Source: Centroberyx gerrardi (taxonomy: Eukaryota > Chordata > Actinopteri > Beryciformes > Berycidae). Taken from it: a stretch of DNA of 64,000 nt. The notes under the pieces are model-generated. The model ran no database searches. It was given only the letters and a program-made list of their open reading frames with translations, and was not told where the DNA came from. Below are positions 34,743 to 39,632 of this stretch, one piece after another. The position numbers and the translations under genes are program-made. The stretch covers positions 14,292,854 to 14,356,853 of the forward strand of contig NC_136000.1 of NCBI RefSeq assembly GCF_048128805.1. Direction: 5' to 3'. The stretch's first letter is position 1; every line of letters begins with the position of its first letter.

Positions 34743-36893
34743 TCAGCGACTCGGCTGCTTGTAGTTGCCGTTGATTTCCTCAGAGATGTTGACTGCCTCG
34801 GCTCCCAGCGGTAACCTGTCACTGTACTCCGAGCCCACTTCAAATTCCTCCTGGTTGGTTTTGGATGAAGATCCGGGGATGGACTCTGTGACCACGCTGC
34901 CCTCAGCCTCTCCCTCTCCGTCTGCGTCTTCTCCGTCGGCCTCCCCCTCTCCCTCTCCCTCACCTAACTCACTGGGGTTGAAGGTTTTCTCTGATTCCAC
35001 AAAAGACGCCCTGGGATCAAAATCTCCAGCCATTTGTTTCTCCATCTGATCCGGATTCTGAGCCTTCATAATCAGCTTGTAGGTCTTTCCTTGATACTTG
35101 TATAACAAATGGCAGCAGGTGGCCCCCAGCAAGGGAACGGTGGCCAGAGCCAGAAGGAAAGTGCTGACAACCACGATGATCAGGAGAGAGGGGATTTTCT
35201 TCCTGGTTGTGAAGACAACTTGAACCTGGCAGTCCTGCCCCCCATAGGTGAGACAGAGTGTGTAATTGGTGCCAGGCAGTAAACCATGGAAGCGATAGGC
35301 ATTAACCCCCTCCTCTATCTTGGACCACTGAACCATAGAGTGCCCATTGCCAGTATTTACACAAAGGTATAGCATGTCCAGAGGGGCTTTTTTGGTTGAG
35401 GACTGGTATAGACTGAAAAGCTCTTTGTCCACTGTTTCCAGGTTTTGAGTGTGACTGAGGTGAAGGTTAGACTTGCTGCTGGGAAGCTGAAGTGGATTGA
35501 GCTGTACTTTGGCCTCCGTCTCTGACACTTCCAATGCAATGACACCAAAATCAAATGTATATTGCTTGAGGTCATCCAGGCTCAGGTTGAAGGCATGGTT
35601 GGAGATGTATTCATTGCCATCACTTACGCCACACTTGCTCGCAAATGGCAGGTCCTCTGAAACATCACCAGCCTGCTTTGTGGCATCGTGTTTGACTGAC
35701 GAACCAGGTGAAATGCTCATGGCCTTTTCTTCAGACTTGGGCCTGTTGATCACATTGTTCTTGGAGGTCTTAGGCCCTACAGGTTTGTTGACAGATGGAT
35801 GGATCTTGTCCACTGTAGAATCAAGCATTGAATTGGTGGCATGTTTTTGGGTGCCTGCCAGCACCACTTTAACACTGCTCTCTGCCTTACCTAAATCATT
35901 GACTGCAGAGCAGCTATAATTTCCATCTTCCTTTTTACTCATACGGGGAATAATGAGGGTGCCGTTTTGAAAAACAAGGAATCGATTGTTGGTTGTTTTA
36001 TCATTGATGGGCAAATCATTTATCTCACCAATGGAAGGCAAGGTGAATTGAAACTGTTGATTTCCTGCGTTCACCTCCCAACTGACTTCTGGTTTTGGGC
36101 TCCCTTTGGTCTCACAGTTTAAGATAACCATGAAGCCCTCATAGAGCTCCGTGTTCTCAATGTTGGGCTGGTAGGTGATAGTGACAACAGGGGCCTTACA
36201 GTCCAGTTTGGGAATCTTTGTAACCATTGTACCGTTCAGGTGTTCAGGGGCTTCACATGAAATGGAGTTCTGATCAGGGACAGAAATCTTGGTCGTTGCG
36301 ATCCAATCCCTCAGCCACTCCAGGCTACAGGAGCAGGTGAAGGGGTTGTTAAAGATCTGGAGGTGGGACATGGAGGAGAGGGCGCTGAAGGTTCCCTGCA
36401 CAATGGTGGTGAACTTATTGTTGTTGATGCGCAGCGACCTCAGTTCTTTGAGAGTGGAGAAGGCATCCTTGGGAAGGTTAACCATTTCATTGTTATTCAT
36501 TTTCAGAAGCTGCAGGGCTGTGAGGTTTTGCAGGTCCTCCCATGGAAAATTAACAATTTTGTTGTAGCTGATGTCCAGGTTGCGGAGCTGGATCAGCGGG
36601 GCCAAGGTGTCCGTCTCTATGGTGACTATCTCATTGTGGGCCAGCCAGAGAGAGGTCACCTGAGTGACATTGATGAAGCTTTTACTTTTCAGCAATTTGA
36701 TCTTATTGGCAGAAAGACTTAGGGTGGTGACATTGGAGGGCAGACCCACAGGTACCAATAGCAGGTCTTTGTAAGCACAGTCAGCAAACTGATGGGCATA
36801 TTTGTCCAGGCAGCTGCAGGACTCTGGGCAGCACTGCACAATGCCAATCACAGTCGTCCACAAGGCAAGGAGCTGCAGGAGCCTTGTCGCCAT
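34743..36893 (-). CDS. islr2: islr2 (Linx), LRR and immunoglobulin domain membrane protein
   Basis: A single coding exon of 716 codons; mammalian ISLR2 is about 745 residues. I start at ATG 36893 (MATRLLQLLALW); the same frame is open a few codons upstream to a TTG at 36908, but a splice acceptor (TTCTTGCAG) separates them, so that part is intron. Order: signal peptide (about 1-21), cysteine-rich LRR N-cap (CCPESCSC), about five leucine-rich repeats (45-165), LRR C-cap (FTCSCSLEWLRDW), one C2-type Ig domain (LNCETKGSPKPEVSW to DGNYSCSAVND), a divergent extracellular module before the membrane (GLLPGTNYTLCL), a transmembrane helix (SLLIIVVVSTFLLALA), and a cytosolic tail with a Glu/Gly/Asp run. 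In mammals ISLR2 is a neuronal surface protein that modulates Trk/Ret signalling and axon guidance. The leader intron holds an RE1 site. Confidence 0.96.
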   Translation of the reverse strand: MATRLLQLLALWTTVIGIVQCCPESCSCLDKYAHQFADCAYKDLLLVPVGLPSNVTTLSLSANKIKLLKSKSFINVTQVTSLWLAHNEIVTIETDTLAPLIQLRNLDISYNKIVNFPWEDLQNLTALQLLKMNNNEMVNLPKDAFSTLKELRSLRINNNKFTTIVQGTFSALSSMSHLQIFNNPFTCSCSLEWLRDWIATTKISVPDQNSISCEAPEHLNGTMVTKIPKLDCKAPVVTITYQPNIENTELYEGFMVILNCETKGSPKPEVSWEVNAGNQQFQFTLPSIGEINDLPINDKTTNNRFLVFQNGTLIIPRMSKKEDGNYSCSAVNDLGKAESSVKVVLAGTQKHATNSMLDSTVDKIHPSVNKPVGPKTSKNNVINRPKSEEKAMSISPGSSVKHDATKQAGDVSEDLPFASKCGVSDGNEYISNHAFNLSLDDLKQYTFDFGVIALEVSETEAKVQLNPLQLPSSKSNLHLSHTQNLETVDKELFSLYQSSTKKAPLDMLYLCVNTGNGHSMVQWSKIEEGVNAYRFHGLLPGTNYTLCLTYGGQDCQVQVVFTTRKKIPSLLIIVVVSTFLLALATVPLLGATCCHLLYKYQGKTYKLIMKAQNPDQMEKQMAGDFDPRASFVESEKTFNPSELGEGEGEGEADGEDADGEGEAEGSVVTESIPGSSSKTNQEEFEVGSEYSDRLPLGAEAVNISEEINGNYKQPSR

Positions 36894-36902
36894 TTTCAGC
36901 AC

Positions 36903-37676
36903 CTGCAAGAATTCAATTACCAGATGTTAGCTAAGTTGTTATAGCCATATTCTCAATCAAGGGGTTTAAATAACGACCAACATGTTGAATACACCAGCAG
37001 TAATGTAATGTGACACCTTGATGCACTTCATATTTATGGCAGTTTGAGTAGAAAGTAGGAGTAGGTAAAGCCTCGGGAAGCATGGGTGTACAACACAATG
37101 CAACACTGCATTAGAATAAAACAGAAAAAATAAAAACGCTGGGTCAATACTGCTGCTGCTGCTGCTGCTGCCATTGTTGATTGGAGACATCAGATTCTCA
37201 TTTTCACTGCCATATTCGCAAAGTTTTCCTCTTTTTCACTGGCCGTTTCGTCCAAAGCACGGCACAAAAACAACGTTTAGTTTAGAAAGTTTTTAGGATT
37301 TTTGGACACCTATGCTCTTTATATTACATGTGCACACATATGTCAGCATTTATAATAAATTCAGGGCCAGGTGGTCTCTCCTGCTCTGAGCGCGTTATGA
37401 AAAACCGGTGCGGACACAGCGACGCTGTCCGTGGTGCTGAATTCGTTGAGTTTGCTGGTAATCAAAAACATTTCACTTCAGCGAGGGTTTTGTGATATTC
37501 CCATATACAAATTTGAGTGCAAGTCGGCACTCAGGACAAGATCCCCTTTTGTAGAGTCTTCAGAGTTGCAACAGACCTATAGGCTGTTTTTTCCCCCCTA
37601 AATCTGATCTGGATGGTCTTTGAGGTCTGTTTTTTCATTTTAACTGCTTAATTAACTACCTACTGCATCGTCTTAC
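36903..37676 (-). other. islr2: islr2 5' UTR intron
   Basis: On the minus strand a strong donor CAG|GTAAGA lies at 37677/37676 and an acceptor TTCTTGCAG ends at 36903, nine bases before the ATG. This pair implies a 774-bp intron in the 5' UTR. It contains a (TGC)7 run at 37151-37171 and the RE1-like element at 37421-37441. Confidence 0.7.
37421..37441 (-). promoter_or_regulatory. RE1/NRSE (REST-binding) element
   Basis: On the minus strand it reads TTCAGCACCAC then GGACAGCGTC. It matches the canonical 21-base RE1 at 20 of 21 positions (the one change is C to T near the end) with standard half-site spacing. REST/NRSF silences neuronal genes outside neurons through this element, and islr2 is a neuronal gene, so the location makes sense. 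Occupancy is inferred. Confidence 0.8.
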
Positions 37677-38050
37677 CTGTCCAATGTTAACTTCCAATTC
37701 CGGTATAAATCACGCTTGGAGTTCAAAATCTTCTAAAACAAGTTTAATGGTCGAAAAAACTAGTGTCCTCGTATGTTGTGGATCCTTTTACATGACTTTT
37801 GGAGACCGCGGCGGCACTGATGATGGGCGGTGGAGGGAACATTTTTCTCCCGGTGAGATGCTGTGCAGTCCGACGGCGCTTTTCCTCTCCAGCGAGTGTG
37901 AGATCCGCTGCGCGCTCCCGCAGCCGCGGAGCAAGAGGGGGGGATTGTGAACGCGCAGCCTCTCCCATCTCGCTCCTCAGTATTAAAGATACAGAAGCTC
38001 CGGGTCCTCCACCCTCAAAGACAATTCATAATTTAGAATCTGATGTTTAA
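37677..38050 (-). promoter_or_regulatory. islr2: islr2 5' UTR exon and CpG-rich promoter
   Basis: The sequence upstream of the inferred leader donor becomes GC- and CpG-rich, especially 37805-37945, in contrast with its AT-rich surroundings. This fits a non-coding first exon and a CpG-type promoter. The exact transcription start cannot be seen. Confidence 0.5.
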
Positions 38051-38850
38051 TTTATTACTCCGTCGACCCAAGCCTAATCTTTGACCTCATTGGGTCTGGT
38101 AGCCCATTGTCTTTAATGCTGAAGAGACTCAGCCGAGAGTTTTCAAACGCGGTGAAACAGATTTTAAGTTTAGATGTCTGAGTAGCATCAGTCAGGCCAG
38201 ACAGGCAGTCGGGCACAGTGTCCAGCAGTGCTTCATTATTTGCATTTGATCCAAAATGAAAGAAATTAAAGACTGAATTAAATAGAAGTCAACGAGAGAA
38301 AATCTTCAAGTCCTTGAGCCATTGGCTGAACATTTCGGATATGGTTTCAGTCATCCCGAGTCTCGACATTTGATTACAACACATCAGGATTGTGTGAATC
38401 TGAATATTCTGCTTTACACCAAAGACACCGAATTAATTAATTTGGTGGCTTAGCCTATAAGAATATGTTATAGCTACAAGTGGCAGAGACAGCTGAGGGA
38501 AACAGCTGAAGGTTGAACCGTGATGAACAAAGGACGACAAATGTGTTACTCTTAACAAGCTTAATTAATTTGATTTTTAAAATGCTTTTATTTCCCTGGT
38601 TGTTTGTAATAAATATATACCGTTAATTAAGTCATTTAATGAATCACAATTAGGCTTTATATCTTTTAAATGAACATCAGTAATCATTCTTGTTCCTTAA
38701 AGGTTTAAGTCATATGGATTAGAATTGGTATTCGTCTTATAATGTTAATATTAGTGTTAGAACCGGGGTGCTTTTGAGATTGAGACTTGTGTTTCATAAT
38801 GCTTGATTTTCTATTCAAATACTGCCATCCTCTGGTAGGCCTGTTAAGCA

Positions 38851-38935
<85 letters not shown>
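38851..38935. repeat. CT microsatellite
   Basis: About 38 CT units with one interruption, ending in a short GT run. Confidence 0.95.
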
Positions 38936-39102
38936 CTCCGTCTTAACGTAGGCTATTTGTTTTTAAAGGCATGATTCCTGATTCATGTAAGCGCTTTAAA
39001 AATAGAAAATCTAAGAAGTCCTCTTAGATGAGAGTGACCCCTGCTGTCCAGAGACTGTAATTACAGACAGAATCTGTAACTGTTTTGACACACGCTTGTA
39101 GG

Positions 39103-39103
<1 letters not shown>

Positions 39104-39153
<50 letters not shown>
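39104..39153. repeat. AT microsatellite
   Basis: About 25 uninterrupted TA units, directly next to the left arm of the foldback repeat. Confidence 0.95.
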
Positions 39154-39157
<4 letters not shown>

Positions 39158-39632
39158 CCTGTGTTCTGTTGTGCTGTACATTAAATAAAGTACCAATGTA
39201 TCATATAGACTTTGATATTTTTTGGTTTACTATTCTAAATATTTGATTTAAACATAACAAAAAATAACTACATAGAGATTAGAGTAGTTTTTTTTTTCAA
39301 TCGAGAGAGAAATGTGACCCCAGCCAAGAACCCATGACTCATTAAAATATACTAATAGTTTCATAATATAATAATGGTTTGAGTTTTTTTTATTTTTTAA
39401 TAGCACATTTTATTTTGGCTTCCTTCCAATGATCTTTCCTTTTCTTTCCTTTCAGTCATGGGGTCTTGGCTGGGGTCACATTTCCCTCTAGATTGAAAAA
39501 AAAAACTACTCTAATCTCTATGTAGCTATTATTATTATTATTTAGAATAGTAAACCAAAAATATCAAAGTCTATATGATACATTGGCACCTTATTTAATA
39601 TACAGCACAACAACACAACACAGGATTTTTTT
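39154..39632. mobile_element. Long inverted repeat (foldback or MITE-like element)
   Basis: The left arm (39154-39340) and right arm (39455-39632) are near-perfect reverse complements, about 180 bases each, around a spacer of roughly 115 bases. Matching landmarks are AAATCCTGTGTT with AACACAGGATTT, CAATGTATCATATAGAC with GTCTATATGATACATTG, and GTGACCCCAGCCAAG with CTTGGCTGGGGTCAC. It has no open frame. The form fits a foldback transposon or palindromic MITE, or a local inverted duplication. The outer left boundary abuts a TA repeat, so target-site duplications cannot be judged. Confidence 0.85.

Follow-up and report, generated by a model that had tools for sequence, protein, structure and literature searches.

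The islr2 locus and the RE1 match in its leader intron

The window, i.e., the whole 64-kb stretch of DNA analyzed here, carries on its minus strand a coding frame that we assign to islr2, the membrane span and tail of the encoded protein having been judged by eye. The frame is preceded by a predicted leader intron and, upstream of the intron's donor, by a CpG-rich stretch that would represent the probable promoter/5' UTR exon. The features on which the argument builds are the following:

34743..36893, minus strand: islr2 coding frame, 716 amino acids plus stop, with LRR and I-set domains (named from its domains, its neighbors and the first-pass annotation of this DNA)
36903..37676, minus strand: predicted islr2 leader intron, 774 nt, GTAAGA...TTGCAG (splice sites predicted from sequence)
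37701..38000, minus strand: CpG-rich stretch upstream of the donor, GC 0.53, CpG o/e 1.06
37421..37441, minus strand: RE1/NRSE, TTCAGCACCACGGACAGCGTC, 20/21 relative to the published canonical NRSE/RE1
37425..37440, minus strand: exact 16-bp core, TCAGCACCACGGACAG, equal to the zebrafish test element REx1 by sequence identity
37433..37441, minus strand: left half-site, TTCAGCACC, followed by the spacer AC at 37431-37432
37421..37430, minus strand: right half-site, GGACAGCGTC, with one mismatch (position 20, C>T)

Neighbors of islr2 in the window are stra6 exons and a neil1-type Fapy glycosylase frame on the plus strand, and, on the minus strand, a sema7a-like exon (E 4.4e-07) and a GH38 fragment below the Pfam cut-off that was taken for man2c1. 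The genes stra6, sema7a, neil1 and man2c1 also accompany ISLR2 on human 15q24, and the neighbor set fits the islr2 identity. A tRNA search and a scan for bacterial promoters and terminators were uninformative at the locus.

Compared with the canonical NRSE, printed as TTCAGCACCACGGACAGCGCC (excerpt of PMC3529185), the sole departure of the islr2 site is the C>T exchange at position 20, with the spacer matching as well. The site likewise satisfies the bipartite 21-bp motif TTCAGCACC-NN-GGACAGCGCC with 1 mismatch at its 19 specified positions, and contains the intact 16-bp core TCAGCACCnnGGACAG. The first-pass annotation had reported this 21-mer on the minus strand in islr2 orientation, and its sequence, strand and coordinates proved exact; the 20 of 21 canonical positions claimed there were recovered on recounting with the spacer included. 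Its distance of "about 240 bases" after the 5' UTR donor comes to 235 nt when measured from the donor ACAG/GTAAGA (slash, splice junction), with which the intron starts at 37676 on the minus strand; by this donor-based measure, the RE1, in sense to islr2, starts 235 nt inside the predicted leader intron.

Two further sequence details were noted in the vicinity. At window positions 37412-37430, the right half-site is trailed by an imperfect mirror of itself, GGACAGCGTCGCTGTGTCC, which is absent at the site of the islr2 duplicate described below. A lone left half-site, TTCAGCACC, is present on the plus strand at 36895-36903, just upstream of the islr2 ATG and touching the acceptor; assuming equal base frequencies, about 0.5 such half-sites are expected by chance per 64 kb.

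Chance expectation and RE1s elsewhere in the genome

Within the window, the islr2 site is the sole match at up to 3 mismatches on both strands. Shuffling the window 100 times yielded a mean of 0.02 matches at this threshold (2/100 shuffles with any match), and none of 200 scrambled half-site consensuses matched the window at up to 2 mismatches, the total at 3 mismatches being 2. No further RE1 was found in the window at up to 4 mismatches, two sites appearing at 5, and none at up to 4 mismatches at the loci of other LRR genes (0/10; L012-L021, 3.4-3.7 kb each). Genome-wide, TTCAGCACCNNGGACAGCGCC was counted over the 778.9-Mb assembly, on contig C4 of which the window falls. Relative to the same pattern read backward, a control that preserves base composition but not dinucleotides, we obtained 619 versus 0 sites at up to 1 mismatch, 2134 versus 22 at up to 3 mismatches, and 945 versus 2 for the exact 16-bp core TCAGCACCNNGGACAG. 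Among the matches listed, 52 were one-mismatch sites, all on contigs C1-C3, and 12 of these were repeat sequence; in the 40 non-repeat one-mismatch sites among the matches listed, 33 mismatches fell at positions 18-21, with position 20, the one altered in the islr2 site, carrying 6 of the 40. Since mismatches gather at positions 18-21 and the last four bases of the NRSE are less conserved (excerpt of PMC4430910), the lone mismatch of the islr2 site lies at a tolerant position.

Of the 619 sites at up to 1 mismatch, 123 are a single sequence, TTCAACACCATGGACAGCGCC, which departs from the RE1 by G>A at position 5 and is apparently a dispersed repeat scattering RE1-like sites. The islr2 site differs from this repeat in sequence, and a genome search with its 381-bp neighborhood, conducted such that very common words are passed over, matched itself alone. 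One repeat copy (C1:2485397-2485417; L024 position 7998) lacks a long open frame and is flanked by exons of the stra6 duplicate.

Exact 21-bp RE1s number 48 genome-wide, 15 of which were retrieved with about 5 kb on each side. As an illustration rather than an enrichment test, coding-like pieces were chosen by eye from 8 of the 15 loci, the other 7 being dropped. Pfam matches were obtained for four of the eight pieces (Sushi, Shisa_N and HLH above cut-offs, EGF below), and three pieces (L031, L028 and L041) were compared with PDB entries. L031 (C3:28153010-28163009) harbors a CACNA1A-type calcium channel exon with a clear PDB match (E 2.4e-31) and an exact RE1 about 4 kb away on the same strand; such a channel gene by an RE1 is an expected kind of REST target. 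L028 matched weakly to BONZAI 1 (E 0.00034), which we take to be a copine relative, and L041 matched bHLH proteins. RE1 sequences also occur in clusters: five exact 16-bp cores are arrayed in tandem on one strand within about 190 bp (C2:38070969-38071161), and four exact 21-bp RE1s, all TTCAGCACCACGGACAGCGCC and all on the minus strand, lie within about 80 kb (C23:7562677-7643218), perhaps reflecting a local array of RE1-bearing genes or segments.

The islr2 duplicate and its RE1-like site

A whole-genome protein search identified, on another chromosome, a second full-length islr2 relative (C1:2475414-2477519; query positions 7-714 aligned with 54% identity, E 1.5e-234), while the next-best match in this search covered query positions 44-227 only (E 2.0e-23). 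This second islr2 copy is accompanied by a stra6 duplicate in tail-to-tail orientation, the arrangement also seen in the window; the two genes were therefore duplicated as a block, likely in the teleost genome duplication. A single scan of viral contigs with the Islr2 protein, conducted in search of contaminant fish DNA, gave no match.

Within 31,986 bp scanned around the islr2 duplicate, two sites were found at up to 5 mismatches, namely TTCAGCACCAAGGACAGAGAG and one copy of the repeat. The former, located at C1:2473537-2473557 in sense to the gene, has an exact 16-bp core, and all 3 of its mismatches fall within the last four bases. The leader intron of the duplicate ends at the identical junction CAG/GTGCnGAAAATGGC; its RE1 begins 265 nt after the predicted donor at 2473272 (ACCG/GTAAGC, picked by eye) within an intron of 2115 nt, compared with 235 nt in the window. 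Strand and order of parts are more secure than this distance, because the strict donor pattern AG/GTRAG gave no match in the stretch scanned. The two sites thus share the exact core, the gene-relative strand and the placement in a predicted leader intron, but differ in the spacer (AA in the duplicate versus AC), the tail (AGAG versus CGTC) and the length of the intron (2115 versus 774 nt). Judged from its tail, the RE1 of the duplicate may be weak.

A blastn comparison on one strand (word size 7, E<=10) of window positions 36901-39500 with the 5.4 kb preceding the duplicate returned six matches, of which the RE1 (16/17 bases, E 0.84) was the sole one inside the leader intron of the window; the other five lay further upstream, the two with better E-values being AT-rich and far upstream. 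At the genome density of the exact core (945 per 778.9 Mb), 0.0026 cores would be expected in 2115 nt and 0.0009 in 774 nt, values that could be higher in reality as RE1s may cluster near genes. Conservation, assessed here by comparison within one genome, concerns a core common to both islr2 copies, with the duplicate weaker in the last four bases. For frog and human, NRSE positions in homologous regions have been described as generally not conserved (excerpt of PMC4430910). We infer that both islr2 RE1s descend from one ancestral site, which suggests that the element is older than the islr2-stra6 block duplication. More tentatively, and with rather more doubt than confidence, one may envisage that a pre-duplication RE1 was held in both copies at near-equal donor distance as the surrounding introns diverged beyond recognizable similarity, and that the copies may have split REST sensitivity, one being tightly silenced and the other leaky.

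Proposed REST-dependent silencing and competing explanations

Elements of this type have been functionally characterized in fish. In zebrafish, the canonical NRSE confines transgenes to the nervous system, and rest knockdown altered reporter expression in one line with delayed repression (excerpt of PMC3529185). The islr2 site resembles that NRSE in 20/21 bases, the AC spacer and half-sites 2 nt apart; it differs from the construct in having the C>T exchange at position 20 and in being a natural single intronic site, not two tandem elements placed before a transgene. The Fugu-derived core NRSE elements REx1 and REx2 have a 16-bp core identical to that of the islr2 site (REx1, and the first element of REx2), and REx2, built on this core, suppresses non-neuronal expression, with de-repression upon rest knockdown (excerpt of PMC3531662). 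In that study, the REx elements were placed directly upstream of reporter promoters, whereas the islr2 RE1 lies inside the predicted leader intron; REST sites of neuronal genes have been found in introns or flanking regions (excerpt of PMC4430910).

The cognate factor is encoded in the same genome: a human REST zinc-finger query gave two exon-sized matches at C16:28071561-28073256 with 73% identity to the human REST zinc fingers. The frame after the zinc fingers extends through the remainder of the retrieved locus and includes a DDEGIHSSHEGGSD stretch, which we take to resemble human REST. Considering the near-consensus sequence, the genome-wide excess of such sites, the single-copy flank, the rest gene and the exact core in the duplicate, the proposal of the first-pass annotation that islr2 has a true RE1 is well supported, and we consider it very probable that the 21-mer in the islr2 leader intron is genuine.

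We are fairly confident that the 21-mer functions as an RE1 through which REST silences islr2 outside neurons and releases it on neuronal differentiation. In this scenario, which we infer from the DNA sequence, REST would bind the 21-mer in non-neuronal cells and neural progenitors, about 0.25 kb into the leader intron and near the CpG-rich promoter region; bound REST would recruit corepressors of the CoREST/Sin3A type, as known from the literature (excerpt of PMC4430910), and hold islr2 off, and loss of REST in differentiating neurons would release the gene. Zebrafish islr2 shows dynamic expression in brain nuclei that contain differentiated neurons (PMC4618557).

An NRSE match, even a perfect one, may be due to chance (PMC1794552), and the islr2 21-mer might be such a match without function. 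This was rejected on the basis of the shuffles, the scrambled consensuses and the backward-pattern counts (619 versus 0 at up to 1 mismatch, 945 versus 2 for the core), and the finding of another core in the equivalent intron of the islr2 duplicate argues against it as well, so that we regard it as very improbable. Still harder to sustain is the idea that the RE1 came with a transposable element as a recent passenger. It draws on the dispersed repeat with its 123 exact copies of an RE1-like 21-mer, but the window site differs from this repeat in sequence, and the 381-bp flank that matched itself alone led us to reject a repeat-borne origin.

Two other explanations accept a functional element and assign it a different role. 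The RE1 could mainly govern a neighbor such as sema7a or stra6: two edited RE1s had effects on distal genes (excerpt of PMC9903721), and stra6 adjoins both islr2 copies, such that synteny alone cannot separate it from islr2 as the target. Yet the RE1 lies inside the islr2 leader intron, and the duplicate likewise carries the core in its leader intron; we consider control of a neighbor highly improbable. Alternatively, REST might bind, with the site being redundant or tuning the timing of expression in neural progenitors, while activating enhancers mainly set the neuronal restriction. The dynamic islr2 pattern in nuclei with differentiated neurons (PMC4618557) is left unexplained by one silencer, and the weakened appearance of the duplicate's site would favor such a redundant or timing role; against this, the core was kept in both copies though the introns are otherwise unalignable. 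On balance, we deem this explanation unlikely, albeit deserving of some weight, and continue to prefer REST-dependent silencing of islr2 outside neurons.

As to earlier reports, our search for a link between ISLR2 (KIAA1465) and REST covered open-licence full texts and found none; target lists are usually placed in supplementary tables, and ISLR2 may already be listed there as a REST target. Among individual papers, an excerpt of PMC10503840 mentions NRSF target enrichment and Islr2 separately, unrelated to an ISLR2-REST link; PMC7653094 mentions ISLR2, with REST and NRSF absent; the main text of PMC1794552 names neither ISLR2 nor KIAA1465; and the excerpt of PMC4430910 has no word starting with "islr".

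The element type and its mechanism are long established; the present analysis adds one probable target gene and, from the duplicate, a hint at the age of the site. Because a similar site occurs at nearly the same spot in an old duplicate and the match is near-perfect, the islr2 RE1 probably serves as a true off-switch, of a well-known type, in non-neuronal cells. It would provide a concrete, testable reason for the neuron-limited expression of an axon-guidance receptor gene, and the islr2 copies would represent a natural duplicate pair whose RE1s may differ in strength.
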